This document shows positions 48,399 through 57,344 of a stretch of 64,000 nt of DNA, in pieces; the stretch's first letter is position 1, and every line of letters begins with the position of its first letter. A program made the position numbers and the translations under genes. Location of the stretch: NCBI GenBank assembly GCA_002356455.1, contig AP017968.1, forward strand, positions 310,001-374,000, read 5' to 3'. The notes below the pieces were generated by a model. It was not told the origin of the DNA and did no database searches. It was given only the letters and a program-made list of their open reading frames with translations. Source of the DNA: Fusobacterium varium (GTDB lineage Bacteria; Fusobacteriota; Fusobacteriia; Fusobacteriales; Fusobacteriaceae).

Positions 48399-49469
48399 TT
48401 ATTTTACAGAGTAACTTCCTAATATTTTAAGGTCTTTACAATTTTTTCTCATAGCATCTATCAAATCTTTTGCTCTCTGTTCTTTTAATTCTCCTACTAT
48501 TTCTACATAGAAGAAGTACTGCCAAGGAAGGTTATGAAGAGAACGAGATTTAATACTTTCCATATTGAATCCATGCTCAGCTACTATTTGAATAATATGT
48601 GCAAGCTGCCCTGCATTGTGGTCAACAGTAAATAAAAGATTAAATCTATCTCCCTTTTCTTCAAGTTTTTTAGTTAATATAATAAATCTTGTAGTATTTT
48701 CTATACTTGTGTTTATATTTTCTACTAGAATTTTTAAACCATAAAGTTCTGCAGTTTCTCTGCTAGCAATAGCAGCTTTGTGTATATCTCCAGCTTCACT
48801 TACGAATTTTGCTGCTAATGCAGTATTAGGATATGGAATAGCTTCAAAATTAGTTCCTTTTAAGAAAGTCTGACATTGAGATAATGCCTGATGGTGTGAA
48901 TAAACTTTTTCTATATCTTTTATTTCAGCTTCTTTTAATCCCAATAAATTTTGATCTATTTTAAGGTCATAAATTCCAGAGATGTGGCAATCATATTTTA
49001 AAAGAAGATCAAGAACTTCTCCCACTTCTCCTGTAAATGAATTTTCAAAAGGAATAACACCATATGCAGCACCACCATCAGCAACTGCTTTAAATACATC
49101 TTCAAAAGTTGCAAATGATTTTAATTTTGAATCTGGAAAAACTTTTTTTGAGGCTATGTGAGAAAAAGCACCCATAGTCCCTTGATATGCAACTACCCCT
49201 TTATTGATGATGGTAGCTTGATATCTTTTAGAAGTATCCATAAGATTCTGAATAAATTCCTTATATGATTCAATATATTTTTCTTCTGTGATATAGGCAC
49301 AGTTTTTTTCTATAACTTGTTTTTCTCTGCCACTGTCAAAAATAGGCATATTATTTTCCAGCTTATAGAGAATGACATCTTCTACAGCCTGCATTCTTTT
49401 TTGGAAAAGGGCTGCTACTTCTTTATCTATTTCATTTATGGCTTTTCTTGCTTCTTCCAGTTTATTCAT
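48399..49469 (-). CDS. pheA: Bifunctional chorismate mutase / prephenate dehydratase
   Basis: A 356-residue enzyme making phenylpyruvate for phenylalanine. Domain order: AroQ chorismate mutase (1-90; INEIDKEVAALFQKRM, DSGREKQV), prephenate dehydratase (about 92-270; YQGTMGAFSHIA, PFENSFTGEV, NTTRFIIL) and a C-terminal ACT domain (about 278-356; HNAGQLAHIIQIVAEHGFNM and ESIKSRSLHNLPWQYFFYVE), which gives feedback control by Phe. It is transcribed away from the aro operon. Confidence 0.93.
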   Translation of the reverse strand: MNKLEEARKAINEIDKEVAALFQKRMQAVEDVILYKLENNMPIFDSGREKQVIEKNCAYITEEKYIESYKEFIQNLMDTSKRYQATIINKGVVAYQGTMGAFSHIASKKVFPDSKLKSFATFEDVFKAVADGGAAYGVIPFENSFTGEVGEVLDLLLKYDCHISGIYDLKIDQNLLGLKEAEIKDIEKVYSHHQALSQCQTFLKGTNFEAIPYPNTALAAKFVSEAGDIHKAAIASRETAELYGLKILVENINTSIENTTRFIILTKKLEEKGDRFNLLFTVDHNAGQLAHIIQIVAEHGFNMESIKSRSLHNLPWQYFFYVEIVGELKEQRAKDLIDAMRKNCKDLKILGSYSVK

Positions 49470-49498
49470 AATTTACTCCCCCTTTAAATTTTGAAATT

Positions 49499-49534
49499 AT
49501 TATAGCACTATTTTATGTGACATTCTACATAAAA
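49499..49534 (-). promoter_or_regulatory. pheA promoter region with palindrome
   Basis: A minus-strand TATAAT lies at 49504-49499. Just upstream TTTTATGT (49511-49518) and ACATAAAA (49527-49534) form an 8-base inverted repeat over the expected -35 region, a candidate operator. Confidence 0.4.
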
Positions 49535-49628
49535 TTTTTTTGCTTTTCTTAAAAGCTTGAAAAATTAGTAAAAATAAGGAGTCTTGTGGAATATAAAAAT
49601 TAAAGTTTCAAAAAATTAAAAAAAAGTG

Positions 49629-49657
49629 TTGCAAATTTTTTAATATAGGTTTACTAT
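49629..49657 (+). promoter_or_regulatory. Promoter of the aro operon leader
   Basis: TTGCAA (49629-49634), a 17-base spacer and TACTAT (49652-49657) precede the leader peptide; transcription would start near 49664. Confidence 0.6.
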
Positions 49658-49689
49658 AAATAAAATTCGTTTTTTCGGAGTGGTAACTT

Positions 49690-49740
49690 ATGAGAGATAA
49701 AAAAACAGACAATATAGTATTCAGATTTTATTTTAGATAG
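49690..49740 (+). CDS. Aromatic-rich leader peptide of the aro operon
   Basis: A 16-residue frame, MRDKKTDNIVFRFYFR, with CGGAG nine bases upstream. Its last six residues contain Phe, Phe, Tyr, Phe, and its stop codon abuts the first strand of the leader hairpin, as in pheL-type attenuators. Ribosome stalling at Phe/Tyr codons when charged tRNA is scarce would alter folding of the downstream RNA. Confidence 0.7.
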   Translation: MRDKKTDNIVFRFYFR

Positions 49741-49786
49741 CCTTGATACAACCATAAAGCCCTTATGGTCTTTTGTTGTATCAAGG
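49741..49786 (+). promoter_or_regulatory. Attenuator stem of the aro leader
   Basis: CCTTGATACAAC (49741-49752) pairs perfectly with GTTGTATCAAGG (49775-49786), extended inside by ACCATAA / TTATGGT. The 3' strand can alternatively pair with the terminator's TTGAATGC, and CCTTGA can also pair with TCAAGG at 49795-49800, so the fold is mutually exclusive with the terminator. Confidence 0.7.
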
Positions 49787-49790
49787 CGAA

Positions 49791-49818
49791 GCATTCAAGG
49801 AATTGAATGCTTTTTTTT
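49791..49818 (+). terminator. Attenuator terminator of the aro operon
   Basis: GCATTCAA (49791-49798) and TTGAATGC (49803-49810) form an 8-base stem with a 4-base loop followed by eight T residues, 30 bases ahead of the aroB start. It stops transcription before the structural genes unless an antiterminator forms. Confidence 0.85.
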
Positions 49819-49848
49819 ATATCTGGGAAAAATATAAGGAGGATTTTT

Positions 49849-50850
49849 ATGAAACTGAGAGTGGAACTTAAAGAAAAAAGCTATGATATTCATGTTGAAA
49901 AAGGAATACTTTATAAAATAAAAGAATATATAAACTTAGATAGAAAAGTTATGATAGTGACAGATAAGGGAGTTCCTCAAAGATATATAGATATAATAAA
50001 AGCTCAGTGTCCAAATGGGGACTCTATAGCTGTAGAGCAGGGAGAAGGAGCGAAAAGTTTTAAAGTATTTGAAGAAGTATGCAGAAAACTTCTTGATCTG
50101 GGATTTCATAGAAATGATTTGATAATAGCTCTTGGTGGAGGAGTAATTGGAGATTTAGGAGGCTTTGTAGCAGCTTCTTATATGAGGGGTATAGATTTTA
50201 TAAATATTCCAACTACTACACTGTCGCAGATAGATAGCTCTATTGGAGGAAAGACAGCAATAAATCTTGGAGATACTAAAAATATAATAGGAGCTTTTTA
50301 TCAACCTAAAGGAGTATTTATAGATTTAGAAGTTTTGGAAACTCTTCCTGAGAGGCACTATTACAATGGACTGGTAGAAGCATTGAAAGCAGGGTTGATA
50401 TATGACAAAGAACTTTTTGAGATATTTGAAAATAAAAACATAAATAATAATCTTCAGGAGATAATATACAGAGCTCTCTTGGTAAAAAAAGATGTGGTGG
50501 AAAAAGATGAAAAAGAAGAAAATCTTAGAAAAATATTAAACTTTGGGCATACTGTAGGACATGGAATAGAGGGGTTCTTTCATTTGAAAGATGTTCTTCA
50601 TGGAGAAGGAGTAGCTATGGGAATGCTTCCTATGATAGAGGATGAGGATTTAAGAGAGAGAACTAAAAAGATATTGAAGAAAATGAATATAGATACAGAT
50701 ATAGAATATGACAGAGAAAAAGTATTTGAACTTATGTTTAAAGATAAAAAAGCTGATCAAGATAAAATAACTTTAGTAAAGGTAAAAGAGCTGGGAAAAG
50801 CTGAATTAGTAAAAGTTCCAATAGAGGAATGTAAAAATTATCTTAAATAA
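49849..50850 (+). CDS. aroB: 3-dehydroquinate synthase
   Basis: A 333-residue enzyme for the second shikimate-pathway step. NAD-binding GGGVIGDLGGFVA, FINIPTTTLSQIDSSIGGKTAIN, and zinc-ligand regions FGHTVGHGIE and LHGEGVAMGM are intact. The ATG at 49849 has AAGGAGG upstream; an in-frame ATG at 49807 lies in the terminator stem and is rejected. First structural gene of the aro operon. Confidence 0.95.
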   Translation: MKLRVELKEKSYDIHVEKGILYKIKEYINLDRKVMIVTDKGVPQRYIDIIKAQCPNGDSIAVEQGEGAKSFKVFEEVCRKLLDLGFHRNDLIIALGGGVIGDLGGFVAASYMRGIDFINIPTTTLSQIDSSIGGKTAINLGDTKNIIGAFYQPKGVFIDLEVLETLPERHYYNGLVEALKAGLIYDKELFEIFENKNINNNLQEIIYRALLVKKDVVEKDEKEENLRKILNFGHTVGHGIEGFFHLKDVLHGEGVAMGMLPMIEDEDLRERTKKILKKMNIDTDIEYDREKVFELMFKDKKADQDKITLVKVKELGKAELVKVPIEECKNYLK

Positions 50851-50861
50851 GAGGAGGAAAA

Positions 50862-51971
50862 ATGCAGAGTACAATAGGAAATAGTATAAAGCTCAGTCTT
50901 TTTGGAGAATCACATGGAACAGCTATTGGAATAGTGATAGACGGCTTGGCTCCTGGAATAAAATTAGATATTGATTTTATACAGCAGCAGCTGGAGAAAA
51001 GAAAACCGAAAGGTAAAATATCAACTCAAAGACATGAAGCAGATGATTTCAAAATAGTCAGCGGATATTTTAATGGATATACAACTGGAACACCATTATG
51101 CCTCATAATTGAAAATAAGTCACAGCTGAGCAGAGATTATGAAAAAACTAAAAGCATAATGAGACCTTCTCATGCTGATTATACAGCAGATGTAAAATAT
51201 ATGGGATATCAGGACTACAGAGGAGGAGGACATTTTTCTGGAAGAACAACAGCACCTCTGGTAGCAGCAGGGGCAATATTCATTCAGATACTTAAATCTA
51301 AAGGAATAGAAATAGGAACTCATATATTAAAATGTAAAAATGAAAGAGATAAAGATTTTTCATCAGATGAAATAACACTTTTAAAGGAAATCAGAGAAGT
51401 AAATGAAAAATATTTTCCTGTACTGGGAAAAGATGCAGAAGAAAAAATGAAAAACATAATAGAAAAAGCTGGAGAGGAGCTGGATTCAGTAGGAGGAATA
51501 CTGGAAACTGCTGTAACAGGACTGCCAGCTGGAATAGGAGAGCCATATTTTAATTCTGTAGAAAGTGTTCTTTCTCATCTTATATATTCTATACCAGCAG
51601 TAAAAGGAATAGAATTTGGAGCTGGTTTTGGAGTGACGGATATGTATGGAAGTGAAGCTAATGACAGTTTCTGTTATGAAAATGGAAAAGTAAAAACAAA
51701 AACAAATAATAATGGAGGTATCAACGGAGGGATAACAAATTCTATGCCGCTCATAATGCGAACTGCTGTAAAACCTACACCATCAATATATAAGGAGCAG
51801 GAAAGCATAGATATATCTAGAGGAGAAAATGTAAAACTTAATATTGAAGGAAGGCATGATCCAGCTATAATACACAGAGCAAGAGTAGTTATAGATTCTA
51901 TGACAGCATTTGGGCTGCTTGATCTCATATGTATGAGATATGGGTATATGTGGATGACGGATAAAAAATAA
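50862..51971 (+). CDS. aroC: Chorismate synthase
   Basis: A 369-residue FMN enzyme for the last common step. FGESHGTAIG is at the N terminus, GGGHFSGRTTAPLVAAGA in the middle, and KPTPSI and HDPAIIHRARVV near the end. GAGGAGG precedes the ATG, 12 bases after aroB. Confidence 0.95.
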   Translation: MQSTIGNSIKLSLFGESHGTAIGIVIDGLAPGIKLDIDFIQQQLEKRKPKGKISTQRHEADDFKIVSGYFNGYTTGTPLCLIIENKSQLSRDYEKTKSIMRPSHADYTADVKYMGYQDYRGGGHFSGRTTAPLVAAGAIFIQILKSKGIEIGTHILKCKNERDKDFSSDEITLLKEIREVNEKYFPVLGKDAEEKMKNIIEKAGEELDSVGGILETAVTGLPAGIGEPYFNSVESVLSHLIYSIPAVKGIEFGAGFGVTDMYGSEANDSFCYENGKVKTKTNNNGGINGGITNSMPLIMRTAVKPTPSIYKEQESIDISRGENVKLNIEGRHDPAIIHRARVVIDSMTAFGLLDLICMRYGYMWMTDKK

Positions 51972-52004
51972 AAATTAAAACATAAAAGCTGAGGGGGAAC
52001 AAAA

Positions 52005-53024
52005 ATGATAATAACTTTAAAAAAGAATGCACCACAAGAAGAGATTCAAAAGATGATTGAGGCTTTAGAAAGTAAAAATGATGTAGCTGTGACTCTTATA
52101 TCAGGAGAAAACTACAATGTATTTGGTATTGTAGGGGATACAACAAAAATAGATGAAAAAGCATTGAAGGCAAATCCATATGTTGAAGATGTAACTAGAA
52201 TAGCAGCACCATATAAGAAAGCCAACAGACTTTTTCACCCAGAAGATAGCATCATAGATGTAGCAGGAATCAAGATAGGAGCAGGACAGAAAATAGCTGT
52301 AATAGGAGGTCCTTGTTCTGTAGAGGGAGAATGCTCTGTTATGGAGATAGCTAAAGAAGTAAAAGAGGCAGGAGCTTCTATGCTTAGAGGTGGAGCTTAC
52401 AAACCTCGTACATCACCATATGCTTTTCAGGGAATGGCAAGTGAAGGAATACAATGTCTGGTGAAAGCAAGGGAAACTTATGGACTTCCAATAGTAAGCG
52501 AACTTATGAGTGCAGATAAAATAGATGAATTTGTTGAAAATGTAGACCTTATTCAAATAGGGGCAAGAAATATGCAGAACTTTGATTTACTGAAAGCTGT
52601 AGGGAAAATAAATAAACCTATTCTTCTAAAAAGAGGGCTTTCAAATACTATTGAGGAATGGATAATGTCAGCAGAATATATAATGGCTGGAGGAAATGAA
52701 AATGTAATACTGTGTGAAAGAGGTATTCGTACATTTGAAAAGTATACTAGAAATACACTTGATCTTAGTGTAATACCTATTATCAAACAGAAAACTCATC
52801 TTCCTATAATAATTGATCCTTCTCATGCTACTGGAAACTGGGAATATGTAGAATCAATGGCACTGGCAGCTATTGCTGCAGGAGCAGATGGGCTTATTAT
52901 AGAGGTACATAATGACCCTGAACATGCTTGGAGTGATGGAGCTCAATCATTAAAACCTAAAAAATTCAAACATTTGATAGAACAGGGAAGAAAAATAGCA
53001 AAAGTCATTGGAAGAGATATGTAG
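52005..53024 (+). CDS. aroF: 3-deoxy-7-phosphoheptulonate (DAHP) synthase, type I-beta
   Basis: A 339-residue enzyme for the first shikimate-pathway step. Residues 1-70 form a ferredoxin-like regulatory domain as in the Thermotoga enzyme, where it gives Tyr/Phe feedback inhibition. The KDO8P-synthase-like barrel follows, with GGPCSVEG, LRGGAYKPRTSPYAFQG, LKRGLSNTIEEW, CERGIRTFE and DPSHATG (metal and phosphate sites). GAGGGGGA ribosome site. Confidence 0.94.
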   Translation: MIITLKKNAPQEEIQKMIEALESKNDVAVTLISGENYNVFGIVGDTTKIDEKALKANPYVEDVTRIAAPYKKANRLFHPEDSIIDVAGIKIGAGQKIAVIGGPCSVEGECSVMEIAKEVKEAGASMLRGGAYKPRTSPYAFQGMASEGIQCLVKARETYGLPIVSELMSADKIDEFVENVDLIQIGARNMQNFDLLKAVGKINKPILLKRGLSNTIEEWIMSAEYIMAGGNENVILCERGIRTFEKYTRNTLDLSVIPIIKQKTHLPIIIDPSHATGNWEYVESMALAAIAAGADGLIIEVHNDPEHAWSDGAQSLKPKKFKHLIEQGRKIAKVIGRDM

Positions 53025-53051
53025 AACTTGCTGTAAGGAGGAAATAAAGAG

Positions 53052-54323
53052 ATGAAAGTAAAAATATATCCATCAAAATGCAGTGGGCAGACAATTATAC
53101 CACCTTCTAAAAGCATGGGACACAGAGCAATAATATGTGCTTCACTAGCAGTAGGAAGAAGTGTCATAAAAAATGTAGCTTATTCTGATGATATAAAAAC
53201 AACTATTGAGGGAATGAGGAAATTAGGAGCTGAAATAGAAGAAAATGGAGATATTCTCATTATAGATGGAATAAAAGATATTACAAAAATTTCAGATGAA
53301 ATAATAAATTGTAATGAATCTGGTTCAACTTTGAGATTTTTTATACCTATATTTTCTCTCACTGGAAAAAAAATAACTTTTCTTGGAAAGAACAGACTTC
53401 TTAAAAGACCTCAAAAAATATATGAAGATATATTTAAAGAACAGAAACTGCATTATTTTCATGATGAAGCTAAAATGGAAATAAAAGGTAAATTGAAAGC
53501 TGGAACATATGTGATAGATGGAAATATAAGTTCACAATTTATAAGTGGACTTCTTTTTACTCTTCCTCTGCTGGATGGAGATTCTGAAATAAAGATAAAA
53601 CCTCCTTTTGAATCAGCTTCATATATAGAGCTTACCATTGAAATGCTGAAAAGATATGGAATAGAAATATCTCAGACAGATGAACTTACTTTTAAAATTA
53701 AAGGAAATCAGAAATATAAACCTTGTGATTATACAATAGAGGGAGATTTTTCACAACTTGGTTTTTTTGCAGTACTGGGAGCAATAAATAATGATATTGA
53801 ATGTCTTGGGCTGAATCATGAATCTAGCCAAGGAGATAAGGTTATAATAGAAATATTAAGAAATGCTGGAATAGAAATAGAAAATATTGATGGAGGATAT
53901 CTTATTCATAAGAGTATTCCTAAAAGTTGTGAAATAGATCTTGCTGACTGTCCAGATTTAGGGCCGATACTTAATGTATTGGGAATGTATGGAGATGGAG
54001 ATTTCAGAATATATAATGCTGGAAGATTGAGATACAAGGAAAGCGACAGAATAGCAGCTATGGAAGAGGAGCTTTTAAAGCTGGGAGTATCTATTAAAAC
54101 TACAGAAGATGAGATTTTTATATCTGGAAAAGAGATATATGATGGAGGAATAGAGGTATCAGGGCATAAAGATCATAGAATAGTTATGAGCATGGCTGTA
54201 GCAGCTACCCTTATGAATAAACCTGTCATTATAGATGGAGCAGAGGCAGTGGAAAAGTCTTATCCTGATTTTTTTGAAGATATAGAAAAAATAGGGGTAA
54301 AGGTTGAGTGCTATGATAAATAA
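53052..54323 (+). CDS. aroA: 5-enolpyruvylshikimate-3-phosphate synthase
   Basis: A 423-residue enzyme with substrate-binding PPSKSMGHRAIICA, NESGSTLRFF, DISSQFISGLL-like (here GNISSQFISGLL) and the C-terminal RYKESDRIAAMEEELLKLG and GHKDHRIVMSMAVAA. The Gly in NESGSTLRF replaces the usual NAGT Ala, a feature known from less glyphosate-sensitive class II enzymes. Start ATG with AAGGAGG upstream. Confidence 0.94.
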   Translation: MKVKIYPSKCSGQTIIPPSKSMGHRAIICASLAVGRSVIKNVAYSDDIKTTIEGMRKLGAEIEENGDILIIDGIKDITKISDEIINCNESGSTLRFFIPIFSLTGKKITFLGKNRLLKRPQKIYEDIFKEQKLHYFHDEAKMEIKGKLKAGTYVIDGNISSQFISGLLFTLPLLDGDSEIKIKPPFESASYIELTIEMLKRYGIEISQTDELTFKIKGNQKYKPCDYTIEGDFSQLGFFAVLGAINNDIECLGLNHESSQGDKVIIEILRNAGIEIENIDGGYLIHKSIPKSCEIDLADCPDLGPILNVLGMYGDGDFRIYNAGRLRYKESDRIAAMEEELLKLGVSIKTTEDEIFISGKEIYDGGIEVSGHKDHRIVMSMAVAATLMNKPVIIDGAEAVEKSYPDFFEDIEKIGVKVECYDK

Positions 54324-55185
54324 AGATATGAAATTTTTCATTGTGGGATTAGGGCTTCTGGGAGGAGCTTATGCAAAAGCTCTCAAGAAAAACGGATATA
54401 CTGTATATGCTGCTGATATAAATGAAGACAGTATAGAATATGCTCTTGAAAATAATATAATAGATGAAGGAGCAGTTTCTGATTATGAATCATTGATAGA
54501 AAAAGCAGATGTAATAATATCAGGTATGTATCCTACTACTATGGTAGAATGGCTAGAAAGAAATCAAAAATATTATAAAAAAGGCTGTATAATCACTGAT
54601 GTAAGTGGTGTAAAAAGAGGTATAGTTAACAAAGTGCAAGAAAGTTTACCTAGAGATGTTGAGTTTATCAGTTCTCATCCAATGGCAGGAAAAGAAGTGA
54701 GTGGAGTAAGAAACAGTGACGAAACTATTTTTGAAATAGCTAACTTCATTATAACTCCTACAGAAAAAAATACAATTCAGGGAATAGAATTTGCAAAGGA
54801 ACTTGGGAAAATACTCGGCTTTAGAAATATTACTCAACTTTCTTTGGAAGAACATGATAAAATGATTGGGTTTGTATCTCAGCTAACTCATGTGATAGCT
54901 GTATCTCTTATGAATACAAATGATAATACACATCTTGTAGAATATACAGGGGATTCATTTAGAGACCTTACAAGGATAGCTAAAATTAATGAAGTTTTGT
55001 GGAGTGAACTTTTTCTTTTAAATAAGGAAATATTAGTAAAGGAGATAGATGATTTTGCAGCAGAGCTGAATAATTTTAGAGAAAAACTCGTAAATGAAGA
55101 TGTGAAAGGAATGAAGAAACTCTTTATTCAGTCTACAGAGAGAAGAAAGCTTTTTGATAAGAAAGATGTAAAGAATAGAAAATAA
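54313..55185 (+). CDS. tyrA: Prephenate dehydrogenase
   Basis: A 290-residue NAD(P) enzyme on the tyrosine branch. The Rossmann motif is FIVGLGLLGGAYAKAL, followed by FISSHPMAGKEVSGV and the all-helical dimer domain (LSLEEHDKMIGFVSQLTHVIAV). No ACT domain is attached. The ATG at 54313 overlaps the aroA stop; a TTG at 54304 or ATG at 54328 are possible. It completes the operon, giving a Tyr route to match pheA across the promoter region. Confidence 0.9.
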   Translation: MINKDMKFFIVGLGLLGGAYAKALKKNGYTVYAADINEDSIEYALENNIIDEGAVSDYESLIEKADVIISGMYPTTMVEWLERNQKYYKKGCIITDVSGVKRGIVNKVQESLPRDVEFISSHPMAGKEVSGVRNSDETIFEIANFIITPTEKNTIQGIEFAKELGKILGFRNITQLSLEEHDKMIGFVSQLTHVIAVSLMNTNDNTHLVEYTGDSFRDLTRIAKINEVLWSELFLLNKEILVKEIDDFAAELNNFREKLVNEDVKGMKKLFIQSTERRKLFDKKDVKNRK

Positions 55186-56996: not shown

Positions 56997-57344
56997 GGGG
57001 ATGCAAAGGTTTCGACGGGGTTCTCAGGTTATAAGTAGCAGGCCAGGATGACCGCTGTGAGAGGTCAACTCATCGTTTAGATGGAAATAGAAATTACGCT
57101 TTAGCTGCTTAATGTCAGCTCACCTTTGAACATATTCTTCTGTAAATGTGTTCAGCCAAGGTGTCACTAAAATACAGATTACCCTAAATGATTTCTCTAA
57201 GTTATAGGGGACATTCCAGAGGATAGCTTTAGTTAGCCCTGTCTGTGGGATTAACTACTGCGAAATCTAATAGCAGACTAAGCTTGTAGAAGCCTATGGC
57301 GCTGGTAATTTCGGACACGGGTTCGATTCCCGTCATCTCCACCA
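56997..57344 (+). ncRNA. ssrA: tmRNA (SsrA), 348 bases
   Basis: The 5' end GGGGATGCAAAGGTTTCGAC and the 3' end GGTTCGATTCCCGTCATCTC followed by CACCA form the tRNA-Ala-like half: GGGGATG pairs with CATCTCC and CCA is encoded. The tag frame reads GNRNYALAA followed by TAA (57083-57112), with ALAA as expected for protease recognition. Pseudoknot-forming G/C-rich stretches fill the rest. Accessory DNA starts straight after the CCA. Confidence 0.96.

Follow-up and report, generated by a model that had tools for sequence, protein, structure and literature searches.

A Phe/Tyr leader and a terminator precede the aro operon of Fusobacterium varium

How is the aroB-C-F-A-tyrA operon of Fusobacterium varium controlled, and how did a fusobacterium come by such control? 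A sequence-only reading of the window (the whole 64,000-nucleotide stretch of DNA analysed here) had proposed a ribosome-mediated attenuator with a Phe/Tyr leader peptide, in which the strands of a first stem also pair with the terminator. Inspection of the sequence located all the parts that it had named between a candidate promoter and aroB: promoter, ribosome site, 16-residue frame, stem at the stop codon and terminator. The stem, P1, begins at the stop codon as described, its first paired base being the last base of TAG, but is 13 bp long and not 12 bp. The features are as follows.

49629..49657, + strand: candidate promoter, TTGCAA-17-TACTAT (sequence)
49677..49680, + strand: Shine-Dalgarno GGAG of the leader frame (sequence; invariant in four species)
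49690..49740, + strand: predicted leader peptide frame MRDKKTDNIVFRFYFR plus stop, 16 codons (sequence and comparison)
49740..49752, + strand: P1 5' strand (alpha), GCCTTGATACAAC; a ribosome at the stop codon would mask it
49751..49774, + strand: apical P1, hairpin ACCATAA/TTATGGT and U-rich CTTTT; candidate pause site
49775..49787, + strand: P1 3' strand (beta), GTTGTATCAAGGC (folding, conserved alpha:beta pairing)
49789..49818, + strand: intrinsic terminator with U8 tail (stem-loop 49789-49812, then T to 49818)
49837..49842, + strand: Shine-Dalgarno AGGAGG of aroB (sequence)
49849..50850, + strand: aroB, first gene of the operon (ATG at 49849; TIGR01357 above cut-off)
50862..55185, + strand: aroC, DAHP synthase (aroF), aroA and tyrA (NCBIfam names; same order in Erysipelotrichales loci)
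48399..49469, - strand: pheA (chorismate mutase/prephenate dehydratase), divergent (NCBIfam; same arrangement in L040-L042)

The candidate promoter is weak, with 8 of 12 consensus bases, and falls below the scanner threshold, so it is unlisted there; 28-30 of the 32 bases of the promoter region (49629-49660) are the same in three related species. The Phe/Tyr codons of the leader frame start at 49720, 49726, 49729 and 49732. Folding of the 183-nt leader gave -50 kcal/mol compared to -31.7 +/- 4.2 in shuffles (z = -4.4; none of 200 as good), and a terminator scan of 441 bases found one terminator where 0.1 was expected in shuffles. NCBIfam names the downstream genes aroB, aroC, DAHP synthase, aroA and prephenate dehydrogenase, which confirms the proposed operon. 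A tmRNA gene lies further downstream, at window positions 56997-57344 (RF00023, 159 bits).

The leader was found in only four of 61 Fusobacteriaceae genomes: the window's own and those of three other species of the genus. The terminator is identical in these four species at all 30 bases, and P1 and terminator together at 77-78 of 78; the upstream intergenic DNA (49485-49625) is identical at 105 of 141 positions in the most distant of the four. Changes within the leader frame are confined to its N-terminal half, with one exception, a silent change from TAT to TAC at the Tyr codon of one species. Thus, in the comparison of fusobacterial leaders that had been suggested, the Phe/Tyr codons are kept in the three relatives, and the single change among them is synonymous.

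Phe/Tyr leaders recur upstream of aroB in Erysipelotrichales

We searched 316 Erysipelotrichales genomes, found AroB in 170 and took the DNA upstream of aroB. Short frames recur there with the endings GFYYYL, YFYYYE, FYFYR and TYFYFYYR directly before the stop codon. Under a strict rule (at least four Phe/Tyr in the last eight codons, Phe or Tyr at the next-to-last codon, stop codon 85-160 bases upstream of aroB), 41 of 87 distinct upstream regions carried such a leader compared to 0.6 expected from dinucleotide shuffles, the 41 loci being diverse but related and so not 41 independent events. On average, 4.9 of the last eight leader codons encode Phe or Tyr. Furthermore, exactly one codon separates the last Phe/Tyr codon from the stop codon in 48 of the 59 leaders of the family, which places the last Phe/Tyr codon at a constant spacing from the hairpin that follows, as control by ribosome position would need.

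Together with the silent Tyr codon in Fusobacterium, this comparison strongly supports the proposed Phe/Tyr leader-peptide attenuator. A short frame with its ribosome site precedes the operon (49690-49740, GGAG) in the four Fusobacterium species and in Erysipelotrichales, translation being predicted; the frame carries a cluster of codons for the products of the pathway, and an intrinsic terminator lies between frame and first gene. We therefore consider it very likely that the locus is a ribosome-mediated transcription attenuator of aroB-C-F-A-tyrA with the 16-residue leader peptide as its sensor of charged Phe- and Tyr-tRNA, a judgement that covers leader-peptide attenuation as a whole up to, and excluding, the last antitermination step. 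With similarly good confidence, the operon would be switched on when Phe or Tyr runs short. On the other side, the operon is present but the leader absent in two further species of the genus, and the Fusobacterium leader has no convincingly conserved pairing that replaces the terminator.

Many Erysipelotrichales leaders are predicted to form a classical three-state attenuator

The leaders fall into two architectures. In type II, exemplified by L171, L176, L179, L182 and L201, the elements occupy the first 110 bases past the leader stop codon in the order segment 1 (GGGCA..), segment 2 (AGATAATTGCCC), a short U-rich stretch, segment 3 (GGCATTATCTGAATGGA) and the terminator (GCCATACGGATAATGCCGTATGGC-T). 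In most loci, the duplex of segment 3 with the 5' arm and loop of the terminator has an energy between -14 and -25 kcal/mol (24 loci, Fisher p ~1e-23); segment 3 has two further partners, segment 2 and the leader-frame end (AGATAA). These pairings predict three states. With no ribosome on the RNA, the leader end would pair with segment 3 and the terminator would form. A stalled ribosome would cover the leader end and leave segment 1 uncovered, so that segments 1 and 2 would pair and segment 3 would take the terminator arm. A ribosome at the stop codon would cover segment 1, whereupon segments 2 and 3 would pair and leave the terminator free.

Folding with the ribosome masked agrees with this scheme in several type II loci and less or not at all in others: with masks whose edges are assumed footprint edges, the terminator probability for a stalled ribosome and for a ribosome at the stop codon was 0.008 and 0.997 in L170, 0.04 and 0.999 in L182, and 0.29 and 0.999 in L171. 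Type II, which has many representatives among the relatives, is by its predicted pairings a complete classical three-state attenuator. No type II leader matched an Rfam family at gathering level.

Type I leaders conserve P1 and show no clear antiterminator

In type I, which comprises the leaders of Fusobacterium, Longicatena and others, alpha lies directly after the stop codon and pairs with beta just before the terminator, with a small hairpin (GCCA...TGGT) and a U-rich run enclosed between them. The alpha:beta pairing is the strongest conserved pairing among type I relatives. The strand sequence changes completely from one relative to another (GCCTTGATACAAC, CGTTATAAAG, CCCCAAAA, CCATCATAAAGC) and the partners still match. 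The TGG and T run of apical P1 are also kept, and the U-rich stretch is a possible pause site; the TGG followed by a T run (window 49760-49775), like its type I equivalents, resembles a hairpin pause site. Many type I relatives carry a TTNTTT motif, and the Fusobacterium copy has it in no strict form.

An all-against-all duplex scan of type I segments for a conserved antiterminator brought out P1 and, more weakly, a pairing between leader codons and terminator, and nothing else. The MAFFT alignment of type I was out of structural register and was consequently not used for pair counts. Masking and folding the Fusobacterium leader with five ribosome placements gave a terminator probability of 0.998 each time. 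A helix exclusive with the terminator and chosen by ribosome position is clear in type II, whereas in the Fusobacterium form the leader-codon pairing alone is suggestive, and it has the wrong sense.

P1 may control the room left between ribosome and polymerase

Intrinsic terminators are repressed by a ribosome in their vicinity; with a reporter in E. coli, the effect was lost at stop-to-terminator distances above 27 nt (PMC4824070). The linear distance from stop codon to terminator is 48-65 nt in type I leaders and 48 nt in Fusobacterium, so that termination should still work with a ribosome at the stop codon. We propose the following states. In RNA without a ribosome, P1 and terminator would both fold with no obstacle, and the operon would be off. 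When Phe and Tyr are sufficient, a ribosome at the stop codon would cover the 5' strand and block P1, leaving about 48 nt free before the terminator, which would fold and keep the operon off. When Phe or Tyr is short, the ribosome would halt on the FRFYF codons with the 5' strand largely free; P1 would then form and take up the RNA that lies between the stalled ribosome and the terminator, shortening the effective distance to what we calculate as 12-18 nt for stalls on FRFYF in the Fusobacterium element. The terminator would lack the slack to fold against the polymerase, and the operon would be on. If P1 and terminator are indeed unable to fold together, a stall would mean read-through and arrival at the stop codon termination. 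The states come in the right order, the exclusion of P1 and terminator through lack of room being conjecture; that P1 takes up the slack as the last step of type I is a conjecture that we put forward tentatively, as one possibility of rather modest likelihood.

Hairpin energies are broadly consistent with these states. For stalls at least two codons before the stop codon, P1 is about as stable as the terminator or stabler in nearly all of 21 sequences (median -14.1 compared to -10.6 kcal/mol), and with a ribosome at the stop codon the leftover type I hairpins are weaker, at -5.5 kcal/mol. We used these energies because a plain effective-distance measure at the stop codon was not clean: weak hairpins always shorten the minimum-energy path there too, and the contrast between stall and stop codon therefore rests on hairpin strength. 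When the stall falls on the final Phe codon, part of P1 is masked, which leaves -14.1 kcal/mol in Fusobacterium and -4 to -10 kcal/mol in other type I relatives; the marked weakening of P1 by a stall on the last Phe/Tyr codon in several relatives speaks against the proposed last step.

Alternative explanations of the Fusobacterium leader

Two alternatives to a loss of slack are improbable in our judgement. In one, the loop and 3' arm of the terminator are bound by the leader codons GTATTCAGATTTTA, a copy of the terminator 5' arm, giving read-through when no ribosome covers these codons. This pairing is the second most conserved in the Fusobacterium-like subset of type I; it reaches -9.6 kcal/mol here (p = 0.017) compared to -11.0 for the terminator, with Fisher p values of 4e-5 over 18 sequences and 8e-4 over eight clusters, and five relatives are predicted to lack the terminator in their ribosome-free leader. 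However, about 30 windows were tried, so that the corrected significance is weak and the pairing only suggestive, and it is missing in L040, L044, L048 and L124. Moreover, these same codons are covered by a ribosome that stalls at Phe/Tyr, and starvation would therefore turn the operon off, which is the wrong sense for biosynthesis.

In the other, to which we give a similarly low chance, the P1 of type I acts on RNA polymerase beside the stalled ribosome, either as a processive antitermination RNA like put/EAR or as a pause hairpin. The conservation of TGG and the U-rich stretch beyond the needs of pairing points this way, and Bacillus subtilis offers a precedent in hairpin and U-rich pause sites that serve leader peptide control (PMC6851288, PMC12288461). 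Such a P1 would fold in untranslated RNA too, though, and give constant read-through; it also has no conserved single-stranded core, and the strict TTNTTT motif is missing from the Fusobacterium copy.

Classical alternative helices as originally drawn, with a stall masking the first P1 strand and the terminator prevented either by its pairing with the second strand or by a duplex of CCTTGA and the second TCAAGG copy, are very unlikely. The repeats exist as claimed, TCAAGG occurring twice and CCTTGA once, and the duplex of 5' strand and terminator (CCTTGA:TCAAGG) reaches -8.3 kcal/mol, with p = 0.11 in this leader and 0.2 family-wide. The 3' strand, however, pairs with TTGAATGC of the terminator at only -5.4 kcal/mol compared to -11.0 for the terminator itself (p = 0.44 here; family-wide p 0.81 and 0.95), and the second P1 strand found no support as an antiterminator of the family in the pairing test. 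The 5' strand, whenever free, is held in the 13-bp P1; at most a few of its bases lie under a ribosome on the last Phe codon; and when the strand is masked the terminator still forms with a probability of 0.998, which leaves the drawn switch unsupported.

That the short frame arose by chance, control lying with the terminator alone or with a protein- or ligand-bound RNA, would fit the absence of the leader from two sister species but is scarcely credible given the excess of leaders in Erysipelotrichales and the constant placement of the last Phe/Tyr codon. No riboswitch or T-box was matched either: Rfam gave no riboswitch at gathering level, and T-box covariance models gave no gathering-level match in the window or nine related loci and, within 49480-49860, no match with E as high as 1.

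Relation to known attenuators

Leader-peptide attenuation is a known kind of control, from which the Fusobacterium form apparently differs by lacking a visible antiterminator. Like the enterobacterial trpL, hisL and pheL leaders (the last represented by Rfam RF01859, Phe_leader), it has codons for the product amino acids, a stop codon beside a hairpin and a terminator before the first biosynthetic gene; unlike them, it has no demonstrable antiterminator helix and controls a whole aroB-C-F-A-tyrA operon. RF01859 matched window positions 49725-49818 below threshold (24.9 bits, cut-off 55, E 0.048). Among Firmicutes, leader-peptide attenuators have been described for hisS/hisZ in Bacilli (PMC2965389) and, with a Leu-rich leader, for ilv in Staphylococcus aureus (PMC5794164). 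These share an amino acid run in a short frame ahead of a terminator but involve other amino acids and genes, and the passages searched hold no Phe/Tyr or aroB case. The proposed last step recalls attenuation of the pyrBI/ampC type and the repression by ribosomes of terminators close to stop codons (PMC4824070), where a nearby ribosome likewise blocks terminator folding; closeness comes about there by coupling or short distance, whereas here it would be brought about by a hairpin, and only on a stall.

The nearest likeness is to the type II relatives (L171, L179, L201), which also stand before aroB and have the same type of leader peptide, a hairpin after the stop codon, a U-rich stretch and a terminator, but which, unlike the Fusobacterium form, possess segments 1, 2 and 3 and the terminator 5' arm with full alternative pairings. 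Two architectures thus appear to do the same job, one by classical alternative helices and one with no visible antiterminator; if the latter works through slack, the regulated quantity would be ribosome-polymerase spacing and not base-pair competition. In the open-access literature we found no earlier description of a Phe/Tyr aro leader for fusobacteria or Erysipelotrichales, and the present set would extend Phe/Tyr leader-peptide attenuation to Fusobacterium and a large group of Erysipelotrichales.

The locus appears to have been acquired horizontally

The attenuator had been called unusual for a fusobacterium, and this is borne out, because the locus looks horizontally acquired. The closest AroB outside the group comes from Erysipelotrichales, an order of gut Firmicutes (62% in Longicatena caecimuris), and other Fusobacteriaceae reach at most 44%. 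In an AroB tree of 63 sequences, the six Fusobacterium rows fall within a clade made up mainly of Erysipelotrichales and other Firmicutes (support 100/97), apart from 14 other Fusobacteriaceae rows, and the arrangement of pheA divergent from aroB-C-F-A-tyrA is identical in Longicatena loci. From this tree, which is of AroB only, and from gene order, transfer of the locus from the Erysipelotrichales side looks the simplest reading, its direction following from two sets of relatives. The attenuator apparently moved across phyla together with the operon. The fuller claim, that an attenuator without an antiterminator helix, in which P1 uses up the RNA between ribosome and polymerase, passed with the whole operon from Erysipelotrichales-like Firmicutes to Fusobacterium, is rather doubtful as a whole. 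In the two same-genus genomes without the leader, G024 (locus L006) and G028 (locus L005), pheA lies divergent beside aroB and the intergenic region is short, with neither leader nor terminator; the leader has probably been lost there.

Several relatives depart from the common pattern. L148 and L149 have a terminator before aroB and a partial type II look, with no Phe/Tyr leader frame detected. The leader frame of L135 (DYYY) continues through the P1 5' strand, with no stop codon ahead of that strand. Finally, in L040, L053, L085, L129, L135 and L142, the leader's ribosome site and start codon can pair with the TGG side and U-rich part of P1, so that in these loci the leader, once transcribed, may occlude its own start site.
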